From: Owenia fusiformis
Taxonomy: Eukaryota > Annelida > Polychaeta > Sabellida > Oweniidae
DNA length: 64,000 nt
Direction: 5' to 3'
Assembly (NCBI GenBank): GCA_903813345.2
Contig: CAIIXF020000001.1
Location: 49,803,885-49,867,884, forward strand
The translations under genes and the position numbers were made by a program. A model generated the notes under the pieces. That model saw only the letters and a list, made by a program, of their open reading frames with translations. It ran no database searches and was not told the origin of the DNA. Position 1 is the first letter of the stretch. Every line of letters begins with the position of its first letter. Shown in pieces: positions 31,704 through 61,700 of this stretch.

Positions 31704-31735
<32 letters not shown>

Positions 31736-34700
31736 GGCCCCTGCGCAAGGATGACACGCAAATTCGTGAAGCGTTCCATATTTTTAAAATTTTGATGTCC
31801 ATGGTTTCTATAAAAAAACATTTTCTCATGTTAAAAATGATAGAAATCTCTAAAACAGCAATAACCTTGCTGTTTCAACAAATTTCTATTTAATATCATT
31901 ATACTTATCATTAATATTATCATTATTATTGATAAATTATCATAATTAAATATGCCTGCCAAAAGTTACGGAAATTTCCTCATTTTAATTATTCATTAAA
32001 CCTAATTGAATGCAAGTGTATGGAATGTTTCTGTGTATTGCATACATGTACATTGCTTTTCAGATATTCACAATTGATTTTTGTCATTCAAAATATTCAA
32101 AATGGCTGCTACAAAATCGTGACTTTCGGATCCCAGAATTCATATACCTGATTTTAATAAACTAAAAAATACATGATAGATATAGTGGCAGCCCTGTCAA
32201 GGCACATATTTGAACGTTTAGTAGAATAATCTTACCTGGAATTATTATAATGCATGTTTTGTGGAAGAAATTCAACTTTAATTAGCTAAAGAAAGAGTAG
32301 TAATGTTATTCATAGTTTAGATTGTTATCTATTGTAAGCTTTGATTCTACATAACATTGTATAACAATTTGTTGAATTAGACCAGGTAGTTTAGATTTTT
32401 AGATAACCAGTGTGGTATTAAGATTTAATTAGGCTACTGAAATAATCTAATGGTATTCATTAAGTTCAGATTGTTATCTACAGTAAGTATAAGCTTTGAT
32501 TCTACATAACATTGTATAACAACTTGTTGAATAAATCCAGGTAGTTTAGATTTTTAGATAACCAGTGTGGTATTAAGATTAAATTATGCTATTGAAGTAA
32601 TGTAATGTTATCATTAGGTTCAGATTGCTATCCACAGTAAGCTTTGATTCATCATAACATTGTACAACAACTTGTTGAATAAATCCAGGTAGTTTAGATT
32701 TTTAGATAACCAGTGTGGTATTAAGATTAAATTATGCTATTGAAGTAATGTAATGTTATCATTAGGTTCAGATTGCTATCCACAGTAAGCTTTGATTCAT
32801 CATAACATTGTACAACAACTTGTTGAATAAAACCAGGTAGTTTAGATTTTTAGATAACTGCTGTGATATTAAGATTTAATTAGGCTACATGTATTGAAAT
32901 TACTAATGGTATTCATTAAGTTCAGATTGTTATCTACAGTAAGCTTTGATTCATCATAACATTGTATAACAACTTGTTGAATAAAACTAGGTAGTTTAGA
33001 TATTTAGATAACTGTTTTAAATTATGCTATTGCAGTAATGTTATATTATTCAGCAATAGACTATTTACGTCATATTTGGAATCTACATGTAAAATTACAT
33101 CTTGAAATGTGGTTTTGAAAAGAGTTTATTAACTTAGAAAATTTAATTTTCTTTGAAAATGTGACTTCTAGGTCGGGGAGATTCCCCATAGACCCCATGT
33201 TGTAAAATCACAAAAAGAGAAATATCTTTTCTTGTGTTGGGTACATAACATTTTCCTTTACTGGACATATTTTAATTTGTATAACTATCAGATACATAAG
33301 GGTAATATGAAAAGTGAATCACTAAAACTGATGAATATTCAAATTTAGGGGAACTTTGTAATACCCTGCCATGTTATTTCCCCCGAATCAGCCAACTGGT
33401 GGCGAAACTGGTAACTATCTACTCACATTTGGGTAATTAACATCTTATTAGATCTGAGATATAAATAACTCAGCATGCGTGAACTTTATAAGACTTTTAA
33501 AGTTCAATAATGTTGTTCAGAGATTAAATCTACAGTTACTGTAAGCTTTGATTCTCCATAGCATTGAGTAATGACCTGTTCACTGGTCAGTATGAAGTGA
33601 AGGTTTCAGCTGAAACCTTCGCTTTATACTGACCAGTGCTGTTGAATAAACAAGTTAGTTTAGATTTGTAGTTTATATTGTTATCTACAGCAAGCTTTGA
33701 TTAACCATTGCATAAAATTGTATAAGTATACTGTAGTTTATTTTTTTCCATTAAGGATTTGTTTCAGTTGAAGTATTTCCATCATTGATATCATCTACAA
33801 AAGTTTGCTTTGATTCATTGTAATACCTAAATACTAACTGTAATTCCTATTTCTATTTGTCATGAATAAATGTTTGTTTCAGTATCAGTTATTTCATTGA
33901 AAACATCCTTTTAATAATATTTTCCTTTTCTGACACCAATAAATAAACAAGTTGGGCCTTTTATGAAATCCCTTTAAACATATTTTAAAGATGGCAGTAT
34001 TACTTTTAACAGCTGTGTTTAAAGTGTTAAGATAACAGTAATCGATCAATATGGCTATTACAGTTAGAGAACACCCTCCCTTAGTACTGTGAATTTATAA
34101 AATGTTTTTAGCATCTGTGTTTATTATTCTGTGATTTATCACACATTTTTATTAATTTTTATAAGGAACTTGTAGATGAAAATCATCAATGTGGCCAGAA
34201 CATTATTTTTTATAGAGCTTTATGACATTTCTTACACATTGTTTTATAGTTATGTTCAATTGGTGTAACAGCTAAGCTATTTATAAGCAGAGCACGTTAA
34301 CATAGGAAATAGAAATAGTACTGATTTGAATTAATATTTCTGTACTATATTTAAAAAATTAAACATTACAAGCTCCATCTAAAAATATTAAATCTTTTAA
34401 AAGTATCATCATCAAATATTTAAAAATTGTCTCTAAATTCATTTAAAATGATATTATCATTAATGCACTAGAGCCACGAATTATTTTTGGTAATGGATAT
34501 GAAACAAACAAAATTTTATAATGTTTGAGTTAGTAGTTTTACACAGATGTGACCTGACATAAGCATACTTACCTGGCACAGGGGATACCTTGATCATCTA
34601 GGAGGTTCCCCCAGTGTGAGGCCTGTCCATTGCACTTCGGGCGGGCTGACCGCTGCGATAACCCCAAATGTGGGTTACTCGGGTGCGTAATTTCTGATAG

Positions 34701-37700: not shown

Positions 37701-40700
37701 ATGCTGTGATTCAAACAAGATAGTTTAGATTTTTAGATCAAAGTTGGTGTGATAAGAAGATCTAATTAGGCTGTTTAAGTAATGTCATGTTTGTTTTAAG
37801 CTTTGATTCAGCATACCATTGCTTAACATCTGCAGTTCATGTTTCATTAATAAAGATTATCAGTGCTCATTTTAGTTGAGTTGTTTTACTTTGTAAATCA
37901 ATTTTTTTTATTTGGACAGCAGTAAAAAAACAAGAGTGGGCATTTTATGGAATACTTTTAGCTTTATTTAAAAGATGGCAGTTGTACATTTGCCAGAAGT
38001 GTTATATGTTAAAATAAGAACAGTCAAAATGGCCATTACATTCAGAAAACATCCCCACTTTCATGAATTTTATAAATGGTTTCTAAAGTGAAAGGTCTTA
38101 GTTACTTTACGTTACATGTCACAAATACATGTATTTAATATTCATAAAGAAGGTATGTTAGCAGTGGCGGATCCAGGAACCAACAAGGGGGGGAGCCCAA
38201 ATTGTCGATCATAGAAAAAAACTTCCGCGCAAGCGCGGAAAAAAATTTTGGGCCCCTAAAACCGAAAAGTGGGCCCAAATTTTGAAAATTTGAGGCCCAT
38301 TTTCTTCAAAATTTGGCCTGAAATTAAAAAATAAGGCCTTATAAGGCCTAGTAATGACCAAAAAGGCCCACTTTTTGGTGCCTGAAGGCCTTTTTGGCCC
38401 AAAATTTTTTGGGCCCAATTTTTGTTTTTTCTGGGCCCAACCTAGGGGGGGGGGGGCCCTGGCCCCATGGGCCCCCCCCCCCGGATCCGCCATAGGTTAG
38501 TAATTATTAGACTCCAGATTGAAAATCTGGAGTCTATTGTTTTTGCCTGTTTTCTTTATTATTAGACTCCAGATTGAAAATCTGGAGTCTATTGTTTTTG
38601 CCTGTTTTCTTTATTATTAGACTCCAGATGAAAATCTGGAGTCTATTGCTTTTGCCAGTTTTCTTTATTATTATTATTAGACTCCAGATGAAAATCTGGA
38701 GTCTATTGCTTTTGCCAGTTTTCTTATTATTATTCTTTCTTTCTTTCCGTACACGTTTTCTCAGCAACTAGAAGAGCTTACTTTAACCTACTTACATGGC
38801 TAACATAGCCCATCGACCTAGTTTCTGGGAAATTAGGTCAACTTTTTATCTAGGTCAAAGGTTAAGAACTAGGTCAAATCTTACATTTTTAACATTCTGT
38901 CAATTATCTTCGTCATTATTTATCGAAACACCTGGATGTACATCTCATTGTGTAGCTTAGAAAAAAACAAATCGAGAGTGTGCCATCCGTTTTTTGATTA
39001 CTCTTACCTATTTTGAGATATGGCGTCCGGAATGTAGGTCAAACTATAAAGTTAAGCAAATTTATTAAATGAGCTATGAAATAAGTGTAGAATTTTCCCA
39101 GAAATCTGAATCTGCAAACCAAATTCCGATCCGACTTCCGGTTCGGAAGTTATGGCGTTTTGAAAACTCAAAAATCGCTAAATTTGGTGCCCATGTTAAG
39201 TCAATGGGAAAAAAGATTTTTTTGAAGTGAAAAATACGGAATATAGACTGAGTTCAGCTTCACATTATCAAAGCCTTCAAAAGAAGGGGACCTCAAAAGC
39301 CATCTAGCTTCAAAATTTGGACACCAAAATGCCTAGGTCAAAATCTAGGTCAAATTCATTGGTTTTCCTTATTTTTTCGATTCTGACACTACACTTTAAT
39401 TATATTCTTCGAAATTGTGTATACATGTAACCAAGAGTGTGCTAATAGCGTTAGCCTTTTGCCGTCAGAAAGTATTTTGACCCACTTTTGAGATATGGTG
39501 TCCGAAAAGTAGGTCAAAATAAAAAGTTCTCCAATTTTAACGTTTGAGTTATAAATTGAGAGTAGAATTTTCTCAGAAATCCGAATCTGCAAACCAATTT
39601 TCGATCCGACTTCCGGTTCCGAAGTTATGGCGTGTCCAAAAAGTAGGTCAAAATGAAAATTCGCCAAATTTAACGTATGAGTTATGAATTAGGGGTAGAA
39701 TTTTGTCAGGAATCCGAATCTTTAAATCAAATTTAGATCCGACTTCCCGTTTGAAAGTTATGGCGTTTTGAAATTTCGAGAAAAATCGATCTGGTGTTAT
39801 CCTGATAGAAAGTCAAGGAAAAAAGATTTTTTTGAAGTGTAAAATACGAGATATAGATTGAGTACAGCTTAAGATAATAAATTCCTATAAAAGAAGGGGA
39901 CCTCAAGAGCTACCTAGTTTCAATATTTGGACAACAAAATGCCTAGGTCAAAATCTAGGTCAAATTCATAGTTTTTCCTTATTTTTGCGATTCTGGCACT
40001 ACACTTTTAGGATTTGCTTCAAATTTTGTATACAGGTAGCAAAGAGTGTGCTAATAGTGTTAGCCTTTTGCCGTCAGAGAGTATTTTGACCCACTTTTGA
40101 GATATGGTGTCCGAAAAGTAGGTCGAAATAAAAAATTCTCCAAATTTAACATATGAGTTATGAATTAAGAGTAGAATTTTCTCAGGAGTCCGAATCTGCA
40201 AACTAATTTTCGATCCGACTTCCGGTTCCAAAGTTATGGCGTGTCCGAAAAGTAGGTCAAAATAAAATTCGCCAAATTTAACGTATGAGTTATGAATTAG
40301 GGGTAGAATTTTGTCAGGAATCCGAATCTTTAAATCAAATTTTGATTCGACTTCCGGTTCGGAAGTTATGGCGTTTTGAAATTTCGGAAATTCGATCTGA
40401 TGGTATCCTGATAGAAAGTCAAGGAAAAAAGATTTTTTTTGAAGTGTAAAATACGAGATTGAGTAAAGCTTAAGATAATAAATTCCTATAAAAGAAGGGG
40501 ACCTCAAGAGCTACCTAGTTTCAATATTTGGACACCAAAATGCCTAGGTCAAAATCTAGGTCAAATTCATAGTATTTCCTTATTTTTGCGATTCTGGCAC
40601 TACACTTTTAGGATTTGCTTCAAAATTTTGTATACAGGTAGCAAAGAGTGTGCTAATAGTGAGAGCCTTTTGCCGTCAGAAAGTATTTTGACCCACTTTT

Positions 40701-43700
40701 GAGATATGGTGTCCGTAAAGTAGGTCAAAATAAAAAGTTCTCATAATTTAACTTATGAGTTATGAATTAAGGGTAGAATTTTCTCAGGAATCCGAATCTG
40801 AAAAGCAAATTTCAATCCGACTTCCGGTCAAAAATTCCTACTTACCTACCTACTTACCTACTCGGCTACCTATTCAGCTACTTACTCAGCTACCTACTCA
40901 GCTACTTACTCAGTACCCGCTCAGCTGCTTACTCAGCTACCTACTCAGCTATTTACTCAATTACTTAATCATCTACTTACTCAGCTTCCTACTCAATTAC
41001 TTACTCAGCTCTTTACTCAAGTAAATCAATCTGGAGTCTTAAATTGAACTTTGTTCAATTTACCAATCTAGTTATTATTATTCTTCTTCCTCCTTCCCAG
41101 ATTTCTCACCAACTAGAAGAGCTTACTTTAAGCTGCTTACATGATCAACTAGGGAATGTATCTGGCTTTCTGGGAAATTAGGTCAAATTTTTATCTAGGT
41201 CAAAGGTCAAGAACTAGGTCAAATCCAGTACTTTGTCACTTTTTTCAATTTTCTCGGTCGTCCTTCAATATTTTCAATCCGGTTTTTTTTCATTGTGTTC
41301 CTCATAAAAAAGTAGGGGAAAACAGGTCGATTTAGTTTTTTGATATCTCAAACCGATTTCGAGATATCAGTGTCCGAAAACGAGGTCCAAAAAAAAGTTC
41401 TCCCAATTCAATGTCCACGCTACTGGTCTTGTAGGAAATTTTCTCAGGATTCCGAATCTGAAAACCAAATTTCGATCCGACTTCCGGTTCGGAAGTTATA
41501 TCGTTTTGAAAGCTCAAAAATCGCTAAATTTGGTGCCCATGTTAAAGGAATCCAACACCTTGCAAAACTTCTTAACAGAGAGGAATAAGGGAAAATGCTT
41601 GCCGGATTCTGAATCTGTGTATTTTTTAATGATTTTTCACCGTCTTAGAATTTCAATTTTTTTCCTTTGAAAAAATGAGATTTGCATTGTTTTCCAATTA
41701 GACAAATGAGTAAACATGAATAGCCCGAAATCTAACGGTGAGATTTTGTTTTAAAAAATCATGGATATCAAGGCTAAATATAGCTATACAATAAACATAA
41801 AAAAGCAATGCTTGGACTCTTCATATTCACACAAAAAATTAATTACTAAATGAGGTTTGATATTTGTGAGAATAAGTTGTACGAGTCGCAATGCTCTACA
41901 AACACCAGACTACAGGGTGGATTAGGATCAATGACACACATAAAAATTGATTTAAAAACATTTCATGATAATTATCTCAAACAAAAGCAGTTAGCGAAGG
42001 ATACATTTCATTACACTCAATAAATAGTTATCACTTTTGACTATATATACATATCTCATGGGAATGTATTTCCATCTGCTCAAGATATCATATTTTAGCT
42101 TCGAAAATCACAATCGTTGGATAATACATTTGTCTCAGAATGATAGGCCACCCTGTAGCAATGTAGCTTTCACTTGAAGTGTACCCTTGAGAATAATGAA
42201 CTTACTTTCAAATTGGTCTTGCTTTTGTGGTGTATGTGGCATTTTAGCAAATCTGCCACGCTCATTTCTTTCCAGAACCATCTTGTTCACATGTAACACT
42301 AGGCTATACGCGCATGTATAGACAGATGACATAGATATACATATAAATTATATATTGCACCTGTATTTACTTACATGGGAATATTCCCTTTGGAAAAATG
42401 AAAATGCATGAACATATATTTTCATCTTATATATGACTTCAAGCTAACATATTATTTCATATTTATATTTTCATAGTTAGTCTAACATAAATAATAGATC
42501 CATGAGAACAATATTCTTTGTTTTCTTAAAAATTGATGGGTTTACTGTGAATTCAATAAATTACAATTTGCAAGGGGTAAGTATACTGTATGACCTTAGT
42601 TGCAAAGTACTGTTTATATATGCAGCTCAATAGCATAAAATATGTTGAATGAAGCATATGGTGGGGATTAGTCGTGTGACACACAAACTGACCAATACAT
42701 GAGGGTATTAGCTACTTTTCACAGAAACCAAAGGAGGACAGTGATTTTATTTCAACTGGGAGCTTACCTCCACACGACTGATCATGTGACCATGGTGTTG
42801 GGTCCCTTTAAGTCAATGGGAAAAAAGATTTTTTTGAAGTGAAAAATACGAAATATAGACTGAGTTCAGCTAAATATAATGGAAGCTTTTAAAAGAAGGG
42901 GACCTCAAAAGCCATCTAGCTTAAAAATTTGGACACAAAAATGCCAAGGTCAAAATCTAGGTCAAATTCAAAGTTTTTCCTTATTTTTGCGATTCTGACA
43001 CTACACTTTAATTATATTCTTCGAAATCGTGTATACACGTAGCCAAGAGTGCTAATAGTGTTAGCCTTTTGCCGTCAGGAAGTATTTTGACCCACTTTTG
43101 AGATATGGTGTCCCAAAAGTAGGTCAAAATAAAAAAATCTTCAAATTTAACTTATGAGTTATGAATCAGGGGTAGAATTTTGTCAGGAATCGAAACTGCA
43201 AACCATATTTCGATCCGACTTCCGGTTCGGAAGTAATGGCGTGTCCAAAAAGTAGGTCAAAATAAAAAAATTCTAAATTTATCGTATGAGTTATGAATTA
43301 GGGGTAGAATTTTATCAGGAATCCGAATCTGCAAACCAAATTTCGATTCGACATCTTGTTCAGAAGTTATGATGTTTTGAAAGCTCAAAAATCGCTAAAT
43401 TTGGTGCCCCATGTTAAATCAATGGGACCGAATAATTTTTTGAAGTGTAAAAATACAAGATATAGAATGAGTACAGCTAAACATAATGAAAGCCCATAAA
43501 AGAAGGGGACCTCAAAAGCTACTTTCCTTCAAAATTTGGACACCAAAATACCTAGTTCAAAATCTAGGTCAAATTCTTAGTTTTTTCTTATTTTTGCAAT
43601 TCGGACACTACACTTCAATGATATTCTTCGAAATTTTGTATACATGTAGCAAAGAGTGTGCTTATAATGTTAACTTTTTGCCGTCAAGAAGTTTTTAGGC

Positions 43701-46700
43701 CCACTTTTGAGATCTGGTGATCGAAATGTAGGTCAAAATAAAAAGTTCTCCAAATTTAACGTATGAGTTATGAATTAGGGGCATAATTTCCTAAGGAATC
43801 CGGATCTGAAATTAAAATTGCAATCCTACCCCCAGTTAAGCCATTTTGAAGTTTGAAATTCGCAGTTGCCAGTATTCACGATGCAGATTGATCAAATAAA
43901 CTTTCAAAAATTCCTACATACCCTACTTTACCTCCCTACCTACTCAGCTACTTATTTGACTACTTACTCAATTGCTTAATTAGTTATTACTTACTTAGCT
44001 ACTCACTCAGCTACTAACTCAGGTACTTACTCAGCTACTTACTCAGCTACCTACTCAGCTTTTTACCCAGTTACTTACTCAGCTACTTACTCAACTACTA
44101 CTAAGGTACTTACTCAGCTAATTACTCAGTTACTTACTCAGCTCTTTACTGATCTATCTAGGTAAAATAAATCTGGAGTCTTAAATTGAACTTGTTCAAT
44201 TTCACAAATCTAGTTATTATTATTTTTCTTTCTTTTTTCTTCCTCCTCACCAAATTTCTCGTCAACTATAACAGCTTACTTAATCCAACTTACTTGGTTA
44301 ACTAAAGACTGAAACCGGCTTTCTGGGAAATTAGGTCAAATTTTTATCTAGGTCAAAGGTCAAGAACTAGGTCAAATCTTACATTTTCAACATTCTTCAT
44401 CATATCTTCGTCAATATTCTTCGTAACTCCTTCATCTTTTTTTCATCGTGTAGCTTAGAAAAAGGCGAATCAAAGATATGACATCAGAATTTTGATTACT
44501 CTTACCGATTTTGAGATACGGCGTCCGGAATGTAGGTCACGCCTAAACATGCTCCAAATCGAATGTGTGAGCTATGAAAAAGATGTAGAATTTTTTCAGG
44601 AATCCAAATCTGCAAACAAAATTTGGATCGGACTTCCGGTTCGGAAGTTATGGCGTTTTGAAAGCACAAAAATCGCTAAATTTGGTGCCTATGTTAAGTC
44701 AATGGGAAAAAAGACTTTTTCGAAATGTAAAATACAGGATATAGACTGAGTACAGCTTAACATAATGAATGCTTATAAAAGAAGGGGACCTCAAAAGCTA
44801 CATAGCTTCAAAATTTGGACACCAAAATGCCTAGGTCAAAATCTAGGTCAAATTCATAGTTTTTCCTTATTTTTACGATTCTGACACTACACTTTAATAA
44901 TTTACTTCATAATTTTGTATACAGGTAGCAAAGAGTGTTCTAATAGTGTTAGCCTTTTGCCGTCAGAAAGTATTTTGACCCACTTTTGAGATATGGTGTC
45001 CGAAAAGTAGGTCAAAATAAAAAAAATTCCAAATTCAACGTATGAGTAACGAATTAAGAGTAGAATTTTCTCAGGAATCCGAATATGCAAACCAAATTTC
45101 GATCCGACTTCCGGTCCGGAAGTTATGGAGTGTCCAAAAAGTAGGTCAAAATAAAAAGTTTCCAAATTTAACGTATGAGTTATGAATTAGGGGTAGAATT
45201 TTGTCAGCAATCCGAATCTGCAAACCAAATTTCGATCCGACTTCCGGTTCGAAAGTTATGGCGTTTTGAAGGCTCAAAAATCGCTAAATTTGGTGCCCCA
45301 TGTTATGTCAATGAGAAAAAGGATTTTTTTTGAAGTGTAAAATACCAGATATAGACTGAGTACAGCTTAATATTCTGAAAGCCTATAAAAGAAGGGGACC
45401 TCGAAGATTATCTAGCTTTAAAATTTGGACGCAAAAATGCCTAGGTCAAAATCTAGGTCAAATTCATTGTTTTTCCTTATTTTTGCGATTCTGACATTAC
45501 ACTTTAATGATTTGCTTCCAAATTTTGTAGACAGGTAGCAAAGAGTGTGCTAATAGTGTTAGCCTTTTGCCGTCAGAAAGTATTTTGCCCCACTTTTGAG
45601 ATATGGTGTCCGAAATGTAGGTCAAAATAAAAAATTCTCCCAATTTAACGTATGAGTTATGAATTAAGGGTAGATTTATCTCAGGAATCCGAATCTTTAA
45701 AGCAAATTTCAATCCAACTTCTGGTTACATAGTTATTGCAGTTTGAAGTCTCGAAAAGTCGATATGATGATTTCCCCATGTTAAGCCAATGGAGTCGAAG
45801 ATAACATTCTTAAGAGTTGTCTAAATGTCTATATTCTAGCTGACTCAGCTTATTCTGGATGACTCAGCTTACAAGTTCTGGATGACTCAGCTCAGTTTGA
45901 AATCTGGAGTCTTAAATTGAACTTGTTCAATTTACATGTCTAGTTATTATTAGACTCCAGATTGAAAATCTGGAGTCTATTGCTTTTGCCAGTTTTCTTA
46001 TTATTATTAGACTCCAGATTGAAAATCTGGAGTCTATTGCTTTTGCCAGTTTTCTTATTATTATTATTATTATTATTCTTTCTTTCCGCGTTTTCTCAGC
46101 AACTAGAGGGACTTCCTAAAATCTGCTAACATAGTCAACTAGGTAATGAGTTCTAGTTTCTGGGAAATTAGGTCAAATGTTTATCTAGGTCAAAGGTCAA
46201 GAACTAGGTCAAATCGTCTCTTTTTGCTATTTCACAAGTTTTCTCAGTCGTCCTTTGGTATTTTCGCTCCGGTTTTTTTTCATCATGTTCCTTAGAAAAA
46301 AAGCTAATTCCGTAAGGCAAACCGTTTTTTGATTACTCTTACCAATTTTGAGATATGGCGTCCGAAAAGTAGGTCAGAACATAAAAAATTCTCCAAATTC
46401 AACGTGTGAATTATCAAATAAGTGTAGAATTATCTCAGGAATCCGAATCTGCAAACAAAATTTTGATCCGACTTCCAGTTCGGAAGTTATAGCGTTTTGA
46501 AATCTCAAAAATCGCTAAATTTGGTGCCCATGTTAAGTCAATGGGAAAAAAGGCTTTTTTGAAGTGTAAAATACAAGATATAGACTGAGTTCAGCTTAAC
46601 ATATTGAATGCCTATAAAAGAAGGGGACCTCAAAAGCTACATAGCTTCGAAATTTGGACACCAAAATGCCTAGGTCAAAATCTAGGTCAAATTCATAGTT

Positions 46701-49700
46701 TTTCCTTATTTTTGCGATTCTGGCACTACACTTTTAGGATTTGCTTCAAAATTTTGTATACAGGTAGCAAAGAGTGTGCTAATAGTGAGAGCCTTTTGCC
46801 GTCAGAAAGTATTTTGACCCACTTTTGAGATATGGTGTCCGTAAAGTAGGTCAAAATAAAAATTTCTCATAATTTAACTTATGAGTTATGAATTAAGGGT
46901 AGAATTTTCTCAGGAATCCGAATCTGCAAACCAAATTTCAATCCGACTTTTCGTTGGGAAGTTATGGCGTTTTGAAAGCTCAAAAATCGCTAATTTTGGT
47001 GCCCCATGTTATGTCAATGAGAAAAAAGATTTTTTTGAAGTGTAAAATACCAGATAAAGACTGAGTACAGCTTAAGATTCTGAAAGTCTATAAAAGAAGG
47101 GGACCTCGAAGGCTATCTAGCTTTAAAATTTGGACACCAAAATCCCTAGGTCAAAATCTAGGTCAAATACATAGTTTTTCCTTATTTTTGCGATTCTGGC
47201 ACTACACTTTTAGGATTTGCTTCAAAATTTTGTATACAGGTAGCAAAGAATGGGCTTATAGTGTTAGCCTTTTGCCGTCAGAGAGTATTTTGACCCACTT
47301 TTGAGATATGGTGTCGGAAAAGTAGGTCAAAATAAAAAATTCTCCAAATTTTACATATGAGTTATGAATTAAGAGTAGAATTTTCTCAGGAATCCGAATC
47401 TGCAAACCAAATTTCGATCCTACTTCCGGTTCCAAAGTTATGGCGTGTCCGAAAAGTAGGTCAAAATAAAAATTCGCCAAATTTAACGTATGAGTTATGA
47501 ATAAGGGGTAGAATTTTGTCAGGAATCCGAATCTTTAAATCAAATTTCAATCCGACTTCCGGTTTGAAAGTTATGGCGTTTTGAAATTTCGAGAAAAATC
47601 GATATGATGTTATCCTGATAGAAAGTCAAGGAAAAAAGATTTTTTTGAAGTGTAAAATACGAGATATAGATTGAGTACAGCTTAAGATAATGAATTCCTA
47701 TAAAAGAAGGGGACCTCAAAAGCTACCTAGTTTCAATATTTGGACACCAAAATGACTAGGTCAAAATCTAGGTCAAATTCATAGTTTTTCCTTATTTTTG
47801 CGATTCTGGCACTACACTTTTAGGATTTGCTTCAAAATTTTGTATACAGGTAGCAAAGAGTGTGCTAATAGTGTTAGCCTTTTGCTGTCAGAGAGTATTT
47901 TGACCCACTTTTGAGATATGGTGTCCGAAAAGTAGGTCAAAATAAAAGTTCTCCGAATTTAGCATATGAGTTATGAAATAAGGATAGAATTTTCTGAGGA
48001 ATCTGAATCTGCAAACCAAATTTCGATCCGACTTTCTGTTTGAAAGTTATAGCGTTTTGAAAGCTCGAAAATTGCTAAATTTGGTGCCCCGTGTTATGTC
48101 AATAGGGAAAAAGATTGTTTTGAAGTCTAAAATACCAGATATAGACTGAGTACAGCTTAACATTCTGAAAGCCTTTAAAAGAAGGGGACCTCGAAGGCTA
48201 TCTAGCTTTAAAATTTGGACACCAAAATGCCAAGGTCAAAATCTAGGGCAAATTCATAATTTTCCTTATTTTTGCGATTCTGACATTACACTTTAATGAT
48301 TTGCTTCGAAATTTTGTATACAGGTAGCAAAGAGTGTGCTTATAGTGATAGCCTTTTGCCGTCAGAAAGTATTTTGACCCACTTTTGAGATATGGTGTCC
48401 AAAAAGTAGGTCAAAAAAAAATCTCCAAATTTAATGTATGAGTTATGAATTAAGGGTAGAATTTTCTCAGGAGTCCGAATCTTTAAACCAAAATACAATC
48501 TAACTTCTGGTTAGATAGTTATAGCGGTTTGAAGTCTCGAAAAGTCGATATGATGATATCCCCATGTTAAGCCAATGGAGTCGAAGATAAAAAATGGAGA
48601 GTTGTCTAAATGTCTAAATTCTAGCTGACTCGATCAGCTTATTCTGGATGACTCAGCTTACAAGTATTCTGGATGACTCAGCTTAAAAAAAGAATTAAAT
48701 CTGGAGTCTTAAATTGAACTTGTTCAATTTACATGTCTAGTTATTCTTTCTTTGCGCGTTTTCTCAGCAACTAGAGGGACTTTCTGAAATCTGCTTACAT
48801 GGTTAAATAGGTAATGAGACCTAGTTTCTGGGAAATTAGGTCAAATATTTATCTTGGTCAAAGGTCAAAATCTAGGTCAAATTATCATTTTGTCAATTAT
48901 CTCTGTCATTTTTCAATATTTTTTCAAAATTTTTTTTTCAACGTGTAGCCAAGAAAAAGACGATTCGACTCTGAGTAATCAATTTTTTGATTACTTTTAC
49001 CGATTTTGAGATATTGCGTCCGGAAAGTAGGTCAAACGAAAACGTTCTCCAAATTCAACGTATGAGTTATGAAATAAGTGTAAAATTTCCTCAGGAATCC
49101 AAATCTGCAAACCAAATTTCGATCTGACTTCCGGTTCGGAAGCTATAGCGTTTTGAAATTGCTAAATTTGGTGCCCATGTAAAGCCAATGGGAAAAAAAG
49201 ATTTTTTCGAAGTGTAAAATACAAGATATAGACTGAGCACAGCTTAACATAATGAATGCCCATAAAAGAAGGGGACCTCAAAAGCTACCTAGCTTCAAAA
49301 TTTGGACACTAAAATGCCTAGGTCAAAATCTAGGTCAAATTCATAGTTTTTCCTTATTTTTGCGATTCTGGCACTACACTTTTAGGATTTGCTTCAAAAT
49401 TTTGTATACAGGTAGCAAAGAGTGTGCTAATAGTGGGAGCCTTTTGCCGTCAGAAAGTATTTTGACCCACTTTTGAGATATGGTGTCCGTAAAGTAGGTC
49501 AAAATAAAAATTTCTCATAATTTAACTTATGAGTTATGAATTAAGGGTAGAATTTTCTCAGGAATCCGAATCTGCAAACCAAATTTCAATCCGACTTTTC
49601 GTTGGGAAGTTATGGCGTTTTGAAAGCTCAAAAATCGCTAATTTTGGTGCCCCATGTTATGTCAATGAGAAAAAAGATTTTTTTGAAGTGTAAAATACCG

Positions 49701-52700
49701 GACAAAGACTGAGTACAGCTTAAGATTCTGAAAGTCTATAAAAGAAGGGGACCTCGAAGGCTATCTAGCTTTAAAATTTGGACACCAAAATCCCTAGGTC
49801 AAAATCTAGGTCAAATACATAGTTTTTCCTTATTTTTGCGATTCTGGCACTACACTTTTAGGATTTGCTTCAAAATTTTGTATACAGGTAGCAAAGAGTG
49901 GGCTTATAGTGTTAGCCTTTTGCCGTCAGAGAGTATTTTGACCCACTTTTGAGATATGGTGTCCGAAAAGTAGGTCAAAATAAAAAATTCTCCAAATTTT
50001 ACATATGAGTTATGAATTAAGAGTAGAATTTTCTCAGGAATCCGAATCTGCAAACCAAATTTCGATCCGACTTCCGGTTCCAAAGTTATGGCGTGTCCGA
50101 AAAGTAGGTCAAAATAAAAATTCGCCAAATTTAACGTATGAGTTATGAATAAGGGGTAGAATTTTGTCAGGAATCCGAATCTTTAAATCAAATTTCGATC
50201 CGACATCCGGTTTGAAAGTTATGGCGTTTTGAAGTTTCGAGAAAAATCGATCTGATGTTATCCTGATAGAAAGTCAAGGAAAAAAGATTTTTTTGAAGTG
50301 TAAAATACAAGATATAGATTGAGTACAGCTTAAGATAATGAATTCCTATAAAAGAAGGGGACCTCAAAAGCTACCTAGTTTCAATATTTGGACACCAAAA
50401 TGCCAAGGTCAAAATCTAGGGCAAATTCATAATTTTCCTTATTTTTGCGATTCTGACATTACACTTTAATGATTTGCTTCGAAATTTTGTATACAGGTAG
50501 CAAAGAGTGTGCTTATAGTGATAGCCTTTTGCCGTCAGAAAGTATTTTGACCCACTTTTGAGATATGGTGTCCAAAAATTAGGTCAAAATAAAAAAATCT
50601 CCAAATTTAATGTATGAGTTATGAATTAAGGGTAGAATTTTCTCAGAAGTCCGAATCTTTAAACCAAAATACAATCTTACTTCTGGTTAGATAGTTATAG
50701 CGGTTTGAAGTCTCGAAAAGTCGATATGATGATATCCCCATGTTAAGCCAATGGAGTCGAAGATAAAAAATGGAGAGTTGTCTAAATGTCTAAATTCTAG
50801 CTGACTCGATCAGCTTATTCTGGATGACTCAGCTTACAAGTATTCTGGATGACTCAGCTTAAAAAAAGAATTAAATCTGGAGTCTTAAATTGAACTTGTT
50901 CAATTTACATGTCTAGTTATTATTATTTTTCTTTCTTTTTTCTTCCTCCTCACCAAATTTCTCGTCAACTATAACAGCTAACTTAATCCAACTTACATGG
51001 TTAACTAAAGACTGAAACCGGCTTTCGGGGAAATTAGGTCAAATTTTTATCTAGGTCAAAGGTCAAGAACTAGGTCAAATCTTACATTTTCAACATTCTT
51101 CATCATATCTTCGTCAATATTCTTCGTAACTCCTTCATCTTTTTTTCATCGTGTAGCTTAGAAAAAGGCGAATCAAAGATATGACATCAGAATTTTGATT
51201 ACTCTTACCGATTTTGAGATATGGCGTCCGAAATGTAGGTCACGCCTAAACATGCTCCAAATCGAATGTGTGAGCTATGAAAAAGATGTAGAATTTTCTC
51301 AGGAATCCAAATCTGCAAACCAAATTTGGATCGGACTTCCGGTCCGGAAGTTATGGCGTTTTGAAAGCTCAAAAATCGCTAAATTTGGTGCCTATGTTAA
51401 GTCAATGGGAAAAAAGACTTATTCGAAGTGTAAAATACAGGATATTGACGGAGTACAGCTTAACATAATGAATGTTTATAAAAGAAGGGGACCTCAAAAG
51501 CTACATAGCTTCAAAATTTGGACACCAAAATGCCTAGGTCAAAATCTAGGTCAAATTCATAGTTTTTCCTTATTTTTACGATTCTGACACTACACTTTAA
51601 TAATTTACTTCAAAATTTTGTATACAAGTAGCAAAGAGTGTGCTTATAGTGTTAGCCTTTTGCCGTCAGAAAGTATTTTGACCCACTTTTGAGATATGGT
51701 GTCCGAAAAGTAGGTCAAAATAAAAAGTTTTCCAGATTCAACGTATGAGTTATGAATTAAGGGTAGAATTTTCTCATGAATCCGAATCTGCAAACCAAAT
51801 TTCGATCCGACTTCCGGTTCGGAAGTTATGGCGTGTCCAAAAAGTAGGTCAAAATAAAAAAATTCCAAATTTAACGTATGAGTTATGAATTAGGGGTAGA
51901 ATTTTGTCAGCAATCCGAATCTGCAAACCAAATTTCAATCCGACTTCCGGTTCGAAAGTTATGGCGTTTTGAAGGCTCAAAAATCGCCAAATTTGGTGCC
52001 CCATGCTATGTCAATGAGAAAAAGGATTTTTTGGAAGTGTAAAATACCAGATATAGACTGAGTACAGCTTAATATTCTGAAAGCCTATAAAAGGAGGGGA
52101 CCTCGAAGGCTATCTAGCTTTAAAATTTGGACGCAAAAATGCCTAGGTCAAAATCTAGGTCAAAATCATAGTTTTTCCTTATTTTTGCGATTCTGACATT
52201 ACACTTTAATGATTTGCTTCCAAATTTTGTAGACAGGTAGCAAAGAGTGTGCTTATAGTGTTAGCCTTTTGCCGTCAGAAAGTATTTTGCCCCACTTTTG
52301 AGATATGGTGTCCGAAATGTAGGTCAAAATAAAAAGTTCTCCCAATTTAACGTATGAGTTATGAATTAAGGGTAGATTTTTCTCAGGAATCCGAATCTTT
52401 AAAGCAAATTTCAATCCAACTTCTGGTTACATAGTTATTGCAGTTTGAAGTCTCGAAAAGTCGATATGATGATTTCCCCATGTTAAGCCAATGGAGTCGA
52501 AGATAACATTCTTAAGAGTTGTCTAAATGACTATATTCTGGATGACTCAGCTTACAAGTTCTGGATGACTCAGCTTAAACAAAGTTTTAAATCTGGAGTC
52601 TTAAATTGAACTTGTTCAATTTACATGTCTAGTTATTAATGCTAGCCTATTTTTCAGTTGGGTTTAGTGACATTTACTACACATTATTTAATATATATTC

Positions 52701-55700
52701 ATGTTCAATTGATTGAACAGCTGAACATCTTATTGAGTCCTTTACTCTAACAAATTCATATATTTTATTTTATTTGAAATATAAAACCACATCAACTCCA
52801 TCTTAATGTATTTAATCTTTTACAAATCATATTATTGAATTTTCTTAAAATTATCTCCGAATTCATTATTGGTGATTCTTTCATCAATTCCCTACAGCCA
52901 TCAATAAACTTCTATAATGGATATTAAAGTAAGACAATGATATGATGTTTGAGTTAGTACTGTACCACAGATGTGACCTGACTTAAGCATACTTACCTGG
53001 CACAGGGGATACCTTGATCATCTAGGAGGTTCCCCCAGTGTGAGGCCTGTCCATTGCACTTCGGGCGGGCTGACCGCTGCGATAACCCCAAATGTGGGTT
53101 ACTCGGGTGCGTAATTTCTGATAGTGGGGGACTGCGTTCGCGCTTTCCCCTGATAAACTAATGTTAGTTTCCCCTCTCTCTCCCTGAATATAATCTTTGG
53201 TCCACCTCCTTGCATTTGATGAGTGAAGAGTACCCTCAATTTTAAGCCCAACAACATTCTTCTGACAATATATTAAGTAAGATGAAGATGGAAAAATTCA
53301 TATACATGTATATTAAAAACATGCAACTATTCAATATTGAGCCAGACCATTTTGCCACACCATGGAGGCCACGGGCCACTAATTCGAATTTGCCATTGTA
53401 ATCACCTCATTGAGATTATTTTGTGGAGTTAACATGAGTATCTGATGAAAATAAAGGCAACTCAGCATGTCTAAATATTAATTAGGTTATTTAAGTTATG
53501 TAATGTTATTCATATTTTAGTTTCTAATTTCTACAGTAAGCTTTGATTCAAACAAGATAGTTTAGATTTTTAGATAATAGCTGATGTGATAAGAAGATCT
53601 AATTAGGCTGTTTAAGTAATGTCATGTTTGTTTTAGTTCAAATTGTTATTTACAATAAGCTTTGATTCAGCATACCATTGCTTAACATCTGCAGTTCATG
53701 TTCCATTAATAAAGATTTTCAGTGCTCATTTTAGTTGAGTTGTTTAACTTTGTAAATCAATTTTTTTATTTGGACAGCAGTAAATAAACAAGAGTGGGCA
53801 TTTTATGGAATACTTTTAGCTTTATTTAAAAGATGGCAGTTGTACATTTGCCAGAAGTGTTATATGTTAAAATAACAGTAATCAGTCAAAATGGCCATTA
53901 CATTCAGAGAACAACCCCACTTTCCTGAATTTTATAAATGGTTTCTAAAGTGAAAGGTCTTAGTTATCCCACCGAACAAAGTTCGAGGGGGATATAGAAA
54001 AGCCGTCCGTCCGTCCGTTCGTCCGTCCGTCTGTTCGTCCGTCCGTTCGTCCGTCCGTCCGTTCGTGTGTCCGGGCAATAACTCAAATACCGGTTGACGG
54101 ATTTCATTCAAATTTTATAGGCTTATGCCTTATGGGTGTAAGACCTCTGCTCGAGAAGGAATTTTCAATATGGCCGCTTAATTCAAAATGGCGGCCATTT
54201 TTCGGAAAAAATATAATCTTTAATAACTCAAATGCTGGTGGATGGATTTGGTTCAAATTTTATATGCTGTTGCCTTGGTACAAAGGAGCCTTGCTCAAGA
54301 AGACATTTTCAAGATGGCCACCAAATTTCAAAATGGCGGCCATTTTTCGTAAAAGAACGTTATCTTTGATAACTCAAAGACCATTGAATGGATTTGGTTC
54401 AAATTTTAGATGCTGATGCCTAGGGACATAGGAGCTCTGCTCGAGAAAGGATTTTCAAAATGGCAGCTAAATTTCAAAATGGCGGCCATTTTTCGTAAAA
54501 AAACGTTATCTTCGATAACTCAAATACCATTGAATGGATTTGGTTTAAATTTAGATGCTGATGCCTAGGGGCATAGGAGCTCTGCTCAAGAAAGGATTTT
54601 CAAGATGGCAGCTAAATATCAAAATGGCGGCCATTTTTCATAAAAAAACATTATCTTTGATAACTCAATTACCATTGAATGGATTTAGTTCAAATTTTAC
54701 ATGATGATGCCTAGGAACATAGGAGCTCTGCTTGAGAAGGGATTTTCAAGGTGGTAGCTAAATTTCAAAATGGCCGCCATTTTTCATAAAAGAACGTAAC
54801 CTTTGATAACTCAAATACCAGTTGACGGATTTGGTTCAAATTCTATATGCTAATGCCTAGAGACAAAGAAGTTCTGCTCAAAAATGAATTTTCAAGATGG
54901 CCACTGAATTTCAAAATGGCCGCCATTTTTCGTAAAAAAAACGTAATTAATGATAACTCAAATACTAGTGGATGGATTTGATTCCAATTTTATATGCTGA
55001 TGTTTAGGGAAAAAGGAGATCTGCGCCAGAAGAAATTTCAAAGGCGATAGCTGAATTTCAAAATGGCTGCCATTTTTCATTGAGAAAGTAACCTTTGATA
55101 ACCCAGATACCATTGGACGGACATTCTCTGCTAAAGAAGAAATCTAAAGATGACAGCTGAATTTCAAAATTGCAACCATGTTTCATAAAGACATAATCTT
55201 TGATAATTCAAATACCAGTGGATGAATTTGGCTCAATTTTTTTATCAAAACATGTTTTGTTCGGTGGGATTTGCTACTCCGTGGAGTTGCTGTTTTTCTA
55301 GTTACTCTACGTAACGTCGTTACATGACATAAAGAAGGTATGTTAGTAAGTATTAACACTAGCCTATTTTTCAGTTGGGCTTTCAACTAGAAGGGTAGGC
55401 AACTTCCCATATTTCATACATAAGCATTGCCTTGGTTTTCAAAATTGGAGAATGTACACATTCCAAAAAATACTTATTTTGTACTTTTTATTGATGATTT
55501 AAAGAAATAACTCAAAAATAAAAACATGATTATCTCCATACATATTGATTTCTACACAAACAAGTACTATGAAAAGTATCACACGACAAATAAGTAAGAC
55601 ATCCTTCAAGATCTATGGCAGGCTAGATAATATATCCATAATTGATGACCGTTGGTTGATGATCGGTGTCTGTAACGAATTCTTACAACTTCCAATAACT

Positions 55701-58700
55701 TAACAAATACTGTTTAGGCTGACTTCAATTTTTCTTCAAAAATCACCTACAAATTTTCAGAAGTTCAAATCTGACTTTATATTTAATATTTGACCTTCAA
55801 TAATCTTTTCAAGGTAAAAAAAAAGTTAAAAAGCTATTTTTCAGCTTGCTTCAAATTGACCAATTTTCTATCAAAATCATCTACAAGTTATCAGAAGTTC
55901 AAATCTGACTTAAGATTTTAGATTTGACCTTCAATGACCTTCTCAAGGTCAAAAAAGGTCACAAAGATATTTTTTCAACTTGCTTCAAATAGACAAATTC
56001 TTTTTTTTCAAAATCATCTCCAAGTTCTCAGAAATTCAAATCTGACTAAAGATTGAACCCATAATATACATTTTATCATGTTAAAGTGCCTTGTATCCAT
56101 ATACAGCATAGGCATAGCAAGAAGGGGTGCGATGGGTGCAAAATTACAGTTAAATCAATTTGCAAAATTAAAAACAAATCTTTCCTCCCCCCCCCCGACT
56201 GAAACCCCAAAAATGTTACGCCAATGTACAGTCTTGTAAGGCCAATATTATGTCTGCATTTATTACACACTTTAAGTTTTGTGTTAACTACTCCTAAAAC
56301 TTTGAAATTGCCAATCAAATAAAAACTTTCTCTTGTTTCACATCTGGGTACTTCTAGATCAAGGTTAGTTTTAAAATTGGAAAATACAATTTTTGCTTGA
56401 TTCTCTTTGTTTTGATTGAATAAATTTGGTTTCCCAAAATGACCACTTTTTAGTATGATAGCAAAATCAAAATGTCATTAAGTTCAAAAGTATTCAGAAG
56501 AATCTTTTTGATGCCCAGTGTGCCCAGACGTGCATGTGAATCATTTGACGTCTATGAAATAATGTTAGGGTTACCAAGTATGTTAGCTAAGAGCACTAAT
56601 ATGTATTGTTCAATTCTAATTCTAGTATAATTACTGAAGCAGTAATTGAAATCTACTGGTATTGAGGTTCATTTGGAGTTCCTTACATATTATACGTTTC
56701 AGGTAGCATGAATTCCAAGTTATACAGTCATAGTGTGATAATGCAGATCATTAAATCATATAATAATTGTAGTATATGAGAAGGGGCACTGAGAAGGGCA
56801 ATTAGTGAATGACGCAGTTATGTAGGTACAATATATAATCAGTAAGTGACGCAGTTATGTGTATAACTACACTACAGGGTACATAAAAATTTTGAAAACA
56901 TTGTAAATTAAAATATTCAGTGATACTTGTAAATCTGAGACTACCCCAACAATGAAATGTATCAACTTATATTATAACCACCTTGCCGGGACTGTTCTAG
57001 GGGTATTAGTGCTAGTTTAGAAGGCTACTATTTTACTAAATTGAACTTAGCAATATGTGCCGTTATAGTGGCGGGCCGTAATTGCGGGCCGTAGTGGCGG
57101 GCCGTAGTGGCAGACCAATAATGATATTTCAGTCCGAAATGAGATATCGTTTAGTGCATATACTTTTCATTCAGCCCTGGGCATAAACGGTGGTAATAAT
57201 CTGAAAATTACATACCACCTTGTTGAAAAACGTTACATCCTGCCAAAATAGTGAAACATTAAGATATTTTGGCTAAAACAGTAGTCATGAAACCAAAACT
57301 ACCTTAACTTTTGTGTTACCCTGTTCTTAGCTTATAAATTGTGCTGATGCAAGTATAACATTATACCAAATCAACAATGCATATGCAACATACATGTATA
57401 GCTTTTATTCTTCACATATTCAATAAATGAAAAGAAGCTGGAATTCAAAAAACTTTAAAATTCAAATCTTATACATACTATAGCAAGATAGATCGAATTG
57501 CATCATAATGATTTTTCTTGTCATTTTGATCAGTGTCTTTCTTCAGAAGTCACAACAATCTAATATCACAACCACAGATGTGATTAGTCTTAAACAATCT
57601 AATGTTACATCCAAAGATGTGATCATTTTGGAGCCGTTTTATGACATAGCCACAAATAGGATCAGTTTGGAAAAATCTAACATCACAACCACAGATGTGA
57701 TAAGTTTGGAACAATCTAATATCACAACTGCAGATGTGATAAATTTGGAACAATCTAATATCACAACCACAGATGCGATAAGTTTGGAACAATTTAATAT
57801 TACAACCACAAATGTGATAAGTTTGGAACAATCTAATATCACAACCACAGATGCGATACGTTTGGAACAATCTAATATCACAACTACAGATGTGATAAGT
57901 TTTGAACAATTTAATATCACAACCACAGATGTGATAAGTTTGGAACAATCTAATATCACAACTATAGATGCGATAAGTTTGGAACAATCTAATATCATAA
58001 CCACAGATGCGATAAGTTTTGAACAATTTAATATCACAACCACAGATGTGATAAGTTTGGAAAAATCTAATATCACAACTATAGATGCGATAAGTTTGGA
58101 ACAATCTAATATCACAACCACAGATGCGATAAGTTTTGAAAAATTTAATATCACAACCACAGATGTGATAAGTTTGGAACAATCTAATATCACAACCACA
58201 GATGTGATAAGTTTGGAACAATCTAAAATCACAACTACAGATGCGATAAGTTTGCAACAATCTAATATCACAACCACAGATGCGATAAGTTTTGAACAAT
58301 TTAATATCACAACCACAGATGTGATAAGTTTGGAACAATCTAATATCACAACTACAGATGTGATAAGTTTGGAACAATCTAATATCACAACCACAGATGC
58401 GATAAGTTTAGAACAATCTAATATCACAACCACAGATGTGATAAGTTTGGAACAATCTAATATCACAACCACAGATGCGATAAGTTTGGAACAATCTAAT
58501 ATCACAACCACAGATGTAATAAGTTTGGAACAATCTAGTGTCACAGCCAAAGATGTGATCATTTTGGAACAATCTAACGTCACAGCCACAGATGAGACTG
58601 GGGCTATTCAGTCTTGGACTTTTGAAAGTGGTACTGAAAATCCTTGGATGACATCTTGTATGGTTGCACTGTTTAGCACTTTAAACGAAGCAAAACCTTA

Positions 58701-61700
58701 CATAGAAAAGAAATTCCCATGCAGTATTCCAAAAGATTTGGTGATTACCCGCCAGAATTATTATCCATTGGCTGATGCCTGTATGGCTAAGTATGACTAT
58801 GTTGAAGAGGATGGTGTGTATGCTGTACTGCTAATTCCCCCTGAAGCTAACCACTATTGTAAACCAGATGTCCCTTACTTTAGGCAAGTGACCAATGAGC
58901 AGCTTGTAAAGGAGGCAGAGAAGGAAGCAAAAGATCAACAAAACTCATCTGTTCCAATCATATTTGTCTGTATAGAAGGCACATCTGGAATTGATCAAGA
59001 TGCATATTTGACAATAAGATGCAAAATTGAGAATGAAACAGAATTGACCGATGAGATTGTGATGAAACATTGTATGATGAGACCTGGGTGGAAATATTCA
59101 CAAGTGGACACTCCAAAGGATTGTGCTTTGAAGAATGTTGAAGGACAAGATGACATGGAGACTTTTTCAGCTGCATATTATTATGTATTTAGTTGTATTG
59201 CTTGTTTAGGTTTGCTAGGAAATTGTCTTACTCTGTTTGCAATGGCCAAAGCCAAGCCGCATCCTTCTAGATGTTACATAGTATGTTTGATTATTACCCA
59301 AAATGTATATTTACTTCTTGCATTTTGTTCCTCTGTAGTGGCTCTGGTGAGTTCTTTCATGTACTTATACACCTTCATGTTATATTTTTGTCAGGTCATA
59401 TCTGTTCTCCAATTTGTATGCGCCACTTTGTCTACATTCATAAAAGTCTTCTCTTCACTGGATAGATACTTTGCAATTTGTAAGCCATTCAGTTACAGAA
59501 GGTTTCTCATGCAAAAATTTAGTACCAATATATATCTCGGATTTTTTGTCACCATTGTAATATTGGGTTTGTGGTTCACATTGCAAGTACTTGTTTTGGA
59601 AAATACTAAAGGGCATGTGTGTGACTTTGAATTATTTAGCTTACGTAAAATGTCAGTGCATCAAAAGTATTTCATAATTTTTGGAATACTTGTGTATTTG
59701 TTACCATGGTTACTAATTGTTGTCCTCAGCTCAATTACATCTAGACACCTATTCAATCACAGTAGAGCACGCAAGAAATTTAACATTCGTAAAAATGTTA
59801 ATTTAGCAGATAAACCTGGTTGGCTAAATGCATTAAGGGTCACGATCCAAAGGTCAGAGGTTAAGGCCACTATATTAATGTTCAGTACAATACTCACATA
59901 TCTGGTTTTATCTGTTCCTCTAATGGCTGCCCAAATCTGGTTTTACACTGAACAAAGTTCATCTCTTCAATTGAAACTCAAAGTTTTATTTTTTGCTGCA
60001 CTTCTGCATACTATTGAGCATTCTGTAAGTTTAATAGTTTATGGTGTCGTGGTGCCACAATTCCGCATGCTTCTGAAAAAGGTACTTTTATGCAGATAAC
60101 AAAATATAGTCAAATTATGTAAATACAAAATGCTCATCAGTTTTCGCTAACTTCTCTATTTTAACCTCTCTTTTGACATCAGGTATCTTTGTGAACATAT
60201 ATCTGACGTGTGCAAATGTATAAGCTTGTCAAAAGTGCCAGAAGAGTTGACTTTGACTCAGAAAATCAGAAAACTTGTTATACAACAAGTCATATTTTAT
60301 TATCCCACCGAACGAAGTTCGAGGAGGATATAGGTCCGTTTGTCCGGGTGATAACTCAAATACTGGTGAACGAATTTGATTCAAATTTTATAGGCTTATG
60401 CCTTATGGCGATAAAACTTCTGCTTGAGAAGGAATTTTCAATATGGCCGCTTAAAAAATATAATCTACTCAAATACTTGTAGACAGATCTGGTTCAAATA
60501 TTATACGCTGATGCCTAGGGACAAAGGCTCTATGCTGAAGAAGAGATTTTCAAGATGGCTGCCGAATTTCAAAATGGTTGCCATATTCGTTGAAATTGTA
60601 ATCTTTGATAACTCAAATACCAGTGAATGGATTTGGTTCAAATTTTATATGATGCCTAGGGACAAAGTAGATTTGTTCAAGAAAGAATTTTCAAGATACC
60701 GGCTGAATTTCCAAATGGCCGCCATTTTTCATAAAAAAAACGTAATCTTTGACAACTCAAATATTAGTTGACAGATTTGGTTCCAATTTTATATGTTCAT
60801 GCCTAGGAACAAAGGAGCTACCCTGAAGAAGAGATTTTCAAAATGGCTACTAATATATAATTCAAATACCAGTGAATGGATTTGGTTCAAATTTTATATG
60901 CTGATGCCTAGGGACAAAGAAACTACCCTGAAGAAGAGATTTTCAAAATGGCTGCTAAATATCAAAATGGCGGGCATTTTTCGTAAAAAAATGTAATCTT
61001 TGAGAACTCAAATACCAGTGAACGAATCCTAGTTGAAGGATTTGGTTCAAATTTTATATGCTGATGCCTAGGGATAAAGGAGCTACGCTGAAGAAGAGCT
61101 TTTTAGAATGGCTGCTAAGTACCAAACTGGCGGCCATTTTTCTTAAAAAAACGTATTCTTTGATATCTCAAATACTAGTTGAAGGATTTGGTTCAAATTT
61201 TATATGCTGATGCCTAGGAATAAAGAAGCTACCCTGAAGAAGCAAAATATGTTTTGTTCGATGGGATTTGCTACTCTGTGGAGTTGCTGTTTTTCTAGTT
61301 TCTTTGTAGTATGGATGTTTTGAATAAGTATAGAGAATGTATATACTCTGTGACATAAAAATCATATCTTGTATACTACAGTCTATTCTATTATGTTTAT
61401 GCATAATATTTTAACCTACAAGAAAAATATATTATTATATCAACTGTGTAAACAAAACTTATTTGTGTAATAAGTATATTAACAAATTTCATCCTTTTAA
61501 CAATATAACATTGCTTAAACAATAAGTCCATAAATTATCCAAATATCAATTCAGTAAATGGTAAACCTCCATTAGCAGGCCAGATCCTTAAAGGGTCACA
61601 CATATCGTTTAGCAAATCGAACGCTGGTTTCTGGTGTTGCTCACCATTTAGTATAAAAGGCCCGATCCCGAAATAATACTCAAGGGTTCACAGGCTCGAG

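Follow-up and report, generated by a model that had tools for sequence, protein, structure and literature searches.

The gene at positions 57508-60099 (+) of a 64,000-nucleotide stretch of the annelid Owenia fusiformis genome (GenBank assembly GCA_903813345.2, contig CAIIXF020000001.1, positions 49,803,885 to 49,867,884; the whole stretch is referred to below as the window) probably codes, as judged from its sequence, for a class A G protein-coupled receptor (GPCR) made from a single, apparently intronless open reading frame (ORF). It belongs to a small paralog family whose products combine an N-terminal tandem-repeat array, an ectodomain with 8 Cys and a divergent seven-transmembrane (7TM) bundle. 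From the comparison of the paralogs we propose, tentatively and at slightly less than even confidence, that every member must carry an outer tandem-repeat tail whose unit can nevertheless be lost and built anew from unrelated sequence. Selection would then act on bulk (length, hydrophilicity and disorder), and duplicates would gain arrays de novo while retaining the 8-Cys ectodomain and the 7TM bundle.

Translation of the gene gave an 863-residue ORF that starts with ATG and contains no internal stop; upstream of the ATG the frame stays open for 8 more codons (to 57484). The predicted receptor reads, in order, leader, tandem array, Cys-rich ectodomain, 7TM bundle and short tail:

57508..57558, + strand: hydrophobic leader, putative signal peptide, residues 1-17 (by eye).
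57554..58594, + strand: tandem array, the free outer end of the receptor, 26.7 in-frame copies of a 39-bp unit coding for 13 residues, 87% match (Tandem Repeats Finder, TRF, period 39).
58639..59136, + strand: Cys-rich ectodomain, residues 378-543 (166 residues), with 8 invariant Cys (alignment of four intact paralogs).
59137..59175, + strand: juxtamembrane linker, residues 544-556, of which 7 of 13 are unlike those of the closest paralog, L002.
59176..60051, + strand: class A 7TM bundle, residues about 557-848 (Pfam 7tm_1; limits of the transmembrane segments, TM, by eye).
60052..60099, + strand: short C-terminal tail, a helix-8-like stretch of 15 residues, and the stop codon (translation and paralog alignment).

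Much of this layout had been anticipated by the original prediction, which described a signal peptide, 26 repeats of 13 residues with a sequon in nearly every unit, and seven hydrophobic segments with DRY but without a standard NPxxY. The leader was found again by eye, the array read in frame as 27 units (counting a degenerate last one) of which 23 contain a sequon, and the hydrophobic segments matched 7tm_1, with SLIVY in place of NPxxY. The same prediction pictured the repeats as a stalk that could hold the ectodomain away from the membrane. This part did not survive, since the array precedes the ectodomain in the chain, and the final Cys of the latter (residue 539) stands about 18 residues ahead of TM1; the array is thus a free outer tail that cannot lift a domain adjoining the bundle.

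Paralogs, which the original prediction had not noticed, came to light in searches of the 498.26-Mb genome (525 contigs): there are four intact family members including the window gene, each a single open frame, of 871 (window), 832 (L002), 775 (L003) and 725 (L004) residues. L002 lies on the same contig as the window gene, 36.7 Mb off, and is 91% identical to it across 508 residues; its leader is the window leader with one change. Over the ectodomain and 7TM bundle, L003 and L004 share 34% and 26% identity with the window gene, respectively. A fifth member, L010 (positions 1967-3774, − strand, of its locus on contig C8), was detected via two weak pieces, and the order leader, array, ectodomain and 7TM bundle is common to the four intact members and L010. 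No sixth member was found with the window gene, L003, L004 and the two pieces of L010 as queries, although a diverged member may have escaped, the three long queries having scored only 85 of 135, 81 of 170 and 82 of 187 candidates. The next-best matches after the family covered the 7TM part only, at E 4.5e-10 or weaker, and the class A matches in the genome, among the matches listed, fell on contigs C1-C12, C124 and C230. No relatives on viral contigs appeared among 131 pattern matches. In Pfam-based searches, the genome gave 3 matches above cut-off to the annelid erythrocruorin linker C-terminal family (PF16915), which marks annelids, and none to COX1 (PF00115). In a tree of the 7TM parts that also took in seven class A receptors of this genome from outside the family, the four intact members formed one group with 100/99 support; 2 of the 8 inner branches of this tree were starred and 4 were weak, and one of the other receptors, L015, was flagged by the program as a long branch. 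That these four are related is supported more by their common ectodomain than by the tree.

Pfam matched 7tm_1 over residues 574-829 of the window protein (256 residues, E 3e-18), with scores of 66.7 bits for the whole protein and 69.9 bits for the 7TM part alone against a gathering score of 30.5 bits. A profile built from the four paralogous 7TM parts matched, along the bundle, class A chains that include the β2 adrenergic receptor. With position numbers assigned from the alignment to the β2 adrenergic receptor, the GN of TM1, C3.25 in TM3 together with a Cys in the second extracellular loop, the DR of DRY, P5.50, P6.50 and Y7.53 were kept in all four intact members. The PDB chains nearest to the window protein by sequence include the GPR34, CCK, β2 adrenergic, motilin and histamine H2 receptors, none of them close (best E 6e-8). 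Neither GAIN/GPS nor 7tm_2 figured among the Pfam matches of the whole protein up to E 10, no LRR or LDL-A module was matched by Pfam in it, and the nematode-type chemoreceptor family Srw (PF10324) stayed below its cut-off (13.9 bits, E 0.033, gathering score 22.2). On sequence grounds we assign the receptor to class A, as a divergent kind. Of the undescribed GPCR family that had been suspected, what stands is a subfamily within class A, set apart by an unrecognised ectodomain; a separate family is not supported, because the 7tm_1 score is over twice the cut-off.

The original prediction had failed to recognise the Cys-bearing ectodomain and proposed searching it and the 7TM part separately and predicting its fold. 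Handled in this way, the 7TM part proved to be class A and the ectodomain remained without a convincing match in Pfam, among PDB sequences or among PDB folds. Its 8 Cys are invariant in the alignment of the four intact members, and 6 of the 8, counted by eye, are present in L010 when this gene is read across two frames. Within this genome, the domain was restricted to the five family genes at E up to 1. Pfam gave no ectodomain match for the window protein and, with all six rows searched, a single one at E 0.27 in one row; a sequence profile search of the PDB gave one chance-level match (E 1.1). Modeling of the ectodomain alone (mean pLDDT, the predicted local distance difference test, of 78.5) yielded a β-β-α-β-α order twice, joined by a further helix, while the model of ectodomain plus 7TM bundle was weak (pLDDT 61). 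The best Foldseek hit of the ectodomain model against the PDB had an E of 0.15 and a probability of 0.07, and VIA-align on 985 Foldseek chains gave Z values of at most 3.9, with rows covering mostly residues 1-68 and barely the second half. The lack of a fold match does not prove the fold to be new, as the alignment of the family is shallow. We also considered an internal duplication of the ectodomain, as both the Cys spacing and the β-β-α-β-α order repeat, but do not propose it, the two halves not being significantly alike (hhalign, P = 0.18 local, P = 0.85 global).

The arrays lie between leader and ectodomain in all five members. Besides that of the window gene, TRF found the following:

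L002 array: 39-bp unit, 13 residues, 23.7 copies.
L003 array: 18/108-bp unit, 6 residues within a 36-residue higher unit.
L004 array: 54-bp unit, about 18 residues, degenerate.
L010 array: 30-bp unit, 10 residues (LDNASNGNSR type), 18.8 copies.

All periods are divisible by three. According to TRF, the array follows the leader directly in the window gene, L002 and L010, and after about 12 residues in L003 and about 40 in L004. In the window gene, the self-match of the array at a lag of 39 residues reached 0.79 compared to a shuffle maximum of 0.19. Matches to the 13-residue array in the genome numbered 31 (150 of 301 candidates scored), and identities of at least 80% were confined to the window gene and L002, the rest being 39% or lower. 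In 6 pairwise comparisons, no two units were more alike than shuffled ones (P = 0.36-0.96). At the DNA level we likewise rejected a shared origin of the four types of repeat, as 5 of 6 comparisons fell within permutations and the sixth, L010 against L004, was marginal (29 compared to a maximum of 28 in 40 permutations). That each branch has a different, unrelated repeat suggests that bulk matters more than sequence.

N-glycosylation as the point of the repeat, which the N-glycosylated stalk of the original prediction might suggest, is not supported across the family. The window protein contains 23 N-x-S/T sequons in the 360 residues after residue 17, and the tested core holds 22 compared to a shuffle mean of 8.6 and a maximum of 16. 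Per 100 residues of N-terminus, sequons amount to 6.4 in the window protein and 6.5 in L002, but to 0.9 in L003 and 0.6 in L004 (2 and 1 sequons, respectively; L010 was left out). With two arrays nearly sequon-free, N-glycosylation is not the shared feature. Nor is the window N-terminus of the mucin proline/threonine/serine type (Ser plus Thr 33%, Pro 0.3%), being sequon-rich instead, and the first 117 nucleotides of the array gave no sign of a DNA hairpin (z = −1.4). What the members have in common is a repeated, Cys-poor segment (0, 1, 1 and 2 Cys across the four intact copies) at the same stretch of the protein, hydrophilic and disordered in appearance as judged by reading.

We compared the family with four class A receptors of the genome that lie outside it and are likewise single ORFs (L013, L014, L016 and L017), hand-picked from the nearest matches, two of which (L016 and L017) have rather long frames. 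The period test did not include L015, because of its short N-terminus, or L018 and L019, whose sequences were read. All four have a leader, by eye, and N-termini of 107-191 residues counted from residue 26, with 3.0-9.3 sequons per 100 residues. None showed a tandem period above shuffles, and no 8-Cys domain was noticed on reading the four sequences. Since these outgroups also have long sequon-bearing N-termini, the latter are not special to the family, whereas the array may be.

The same comparison bears on the explanation that competes most directly with a required tail, namely that the array is a neutral minisatellite without a role, sitting in a tolerant disordered N-terminus where only in-frame expansions survive, which we regard as possible though doubtful. 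It would account for the long repeat-free N-termini of the other class A receptors of the genome and for the pattern of change among the window units, which differ from their consensus by 52 nonsynonymous and 18 synonymous changes over 30.3 nonsynonymous and 8.7 synonymous sites, so that any constraint on its amino acids would be weak. It would also account for the fast turnover of the array described in the next paragraph. It sits less well with the presence of arrays of unrelated units in 5 of 5 members compared to 0 of 4 outgroups, but this count comes from four lineages in one genome.

Turnover is best followed between the window gene and L002, which lie within a duplicated segment corresponding to positions about 56235 to 62492, with breaks. 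Copy number already differs between these recent duplicates (26.7 in the window gene compared to 23.7 in L002), as do the variants within the arrays: AIR is found once in the window gene compared to 9 times in L002, and the counts for the others, in the same order, are SFE 4 and 0, EEF 0 and 3, TSTD 0 and 3, and TTID 2 and 0. Of 26 window units, 23 had their closest match in the same gene, 1 had it in L002, and 2 were tied; for the 23 L002 units, the corresponding counts were 7 own, 4 window and 12 ties. Mean unit difference was 0.120 between the genes, 0.120 within the window array and 0.097 within that of L002. As the mean between the genes is no larger than that within the window array, the case for turnover rests on the shared variants rather than on mean distance. 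Each array turns over quickly within its gene, probably by unequal exchange, in steps of multiples of three bases. Tandem repeats of about 145 bp, alike at 54078-55115 and 60467-60962, flank the receptor gene, and similar sequence (L012) occurs 3′ of the duplicate; that these repeats mediated the duplication may be the case, but is a guess.

Outside the array, 61 of 1458 bases differ between the window gene and L002 without a single gap, while four flank blocks differ by 5.3 to 9.0% and hold 32 gaps in 2609 aligned bases. If gaps fall independently, the chance of finding none in the coding part is about 7e-7. The reading frame has been guarded since the recent duplication.

Several observations nevertheless weigh against a family of functional receptors with an obligatory tail. 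The L004 array is degenerate (z at lag 18 of 6.3 compared to 73 in the window gene) and begins some 40 residues past the leader. D2.50, W6.48 and NPxxY are kept in none of the four intact members, which puts coupling to a G protein in question. Unless the assembly is in error, L010 is broken into five open pieces with three frame changes and stops between the last two. Finally, between the window gene and L002 dN was 0.045 and dS 0.035, a ratio of 1.30 that is not different from neutral; with amino-acid change not slower than silent change, at least one of the two genes may be weakly constrained. The broken fifth copy and this ratio of about 1.3 would suit a window gene or L002 on its way to becoming a pseudogene after the segmental duplication, as would the 45 of 54 changed codons that alter the amino acid, compared to a mean of 45.7 in neutral simulations. 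We consider such decay quite improbable given that neither duplicate contains a stop (neutral simulated chance 0.049) and that no indel separates the 1458 coding bases. Moreover, polarisation by the other paralogs, informative at 13 of the 45 sites, showed the family residue to be kept by the window gene at 11 sites and by L002 at 2 (P = 0.02), in agreement with the tree branches (0.014 for the window gene and 0.093 for L002), so that the window gene is the conservative copy.

Positive selection was rejected as a reading of the ratio of 1.30, which is not above 1 (binomial test, P = 0.23; simulation, P = 0.58). The amino-acid differences between the duplicates are concentrated in the extracellular linker and loops, where 51 of the 320 residues hold 14 of the 35 differences (P = 0.0002, Fisher's test; for the loops alone, 7 in 38 residues, P = 0.06). 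We read this excess as looser constraint and not as adaptation.

At the inner face, 2 of 36 residues of the third intracellular loop and 0 of 15 residues of the tail differ between the duplicates. This near-identity bears on whether the product signals at all, as the loss of D2.50, W6.48 and NPxxY could also mean a decoy or adhesion-type surface protein whose 7TM bundle serves chiefly as an anchor for the ectodomain and array and does not signal through a G protein. In class A receptors these three features are common but not universal. The four intact members have N, T or S at position 2.50, S or I at 6.48, and SLIVY, SFFIY or NLLLY at NPxxY. Retention of the DR of DRY, P5.50, P6.50 and Y7.53 in all four argues, like the nearly unchanged inner face, for a signaling receptor, and we hold the decoy or adhesion role to be unlikely.

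For a signaling receptor with an outer tail, class A biology would place the N-terminus outside the cell and the G protein at the inner face. With moderate confidence, the 8-Cys domain would take part in ligand recognition or serve as a lid that passes ligand binding on to the bundle, because it adjoins the bundle and, of the extracellular parts, is the one that the paralogs conserve. The array would form a free-ended tail, sequon-rich in some copies, of which presence and bulk rather than sequence are kept. Such a tail could form a brush at the cell surface, spacing or shielding the receptor within glycocalyx or mucus, may anchor it, or could aid its export and surface stability; our confidence that it is a bulk device of this kind (brush, shield, spacer or export aid) is low, and a role as a sensory or immune-type surface receptor is a guess. 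If the proposal is true, copy number would be a quick dial for receptor reach or shielding, possibly polymorphic between individuals.

Elsewhere in the window, open pieces at 19357-24234 on the − strand include an RVT_1 match above cut-off (E 1e-14) and, below cut-offs, matches to a phage-type integrase (E 4e-5) and a GDSL lipase (E 4e-4); this looks like a tyrosine-recombinase retroelement of the DIRS/Ngaro-like type. TRF also reported several satellite arrays of 147-152 bp with similar consensus units at 28370-33012, and blocks of a 133-bp repeat, some within higher units of 474-476 bp, at 39498-51967.

The gene models are probably already present in the public annotation of the species. Among the papers listed by literature searches on class A receptors with N-terminal tandem repeats, none showed this architecture, judged on titles and abstract openings. 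In orphan invertebrate receptors of class A, the N-terminus tends to escape notice. This family supplies orphan receptors whose compact, unrecognised domain could be used to look for ligands. It is also a case, open to testing, of a protein segment whose kind and position are conserved but whose sequence is not, with different units in four lineages.

The window receptor resembles class A GPCRs (PF00001) in its 7TM profile, the GN of TM1, the C3.25 and second extracellular loop Cys, DR, P5.50, P6.50 and Y7.53, and departs from typical ones in its N-terminal array of about 350 residues, its 8-Cys ectodomain and the loss of D2.50, W6.48 and NPxxY. Adhesion GPCRs with mucin-like stalks (EMR/ADGRE) also have a large glycosylated extracellular part, but their stalk lies on the membrane side of the binding domains and a GAIN/GPS region is present; in the window receptor the array is outermost, and neither GPS nor 7tm_2 was matched. 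DRD4 carries a 48-bp coding variable number tandem repeat in its third intracellular loop. Both are in-frame minisatellites in class A genes, but the window array is extracellular. What appears to be new is a subfamily of class A whose ectodomain is unrecognised and whose outer tail is unusual, the nearest case that we found in print being the LDLRR-GPCRs of Ciona (PMC2396169). These and the snail receptor GRL101 are described there as lineage-specific rhodopsin-family receptors with N-terminal tandem LDL-A modules. Their repeats are folded LDL-A domains, whereas those of the window family are short, non-domain repeats that are unrelated between paralogs (PMC2396169).

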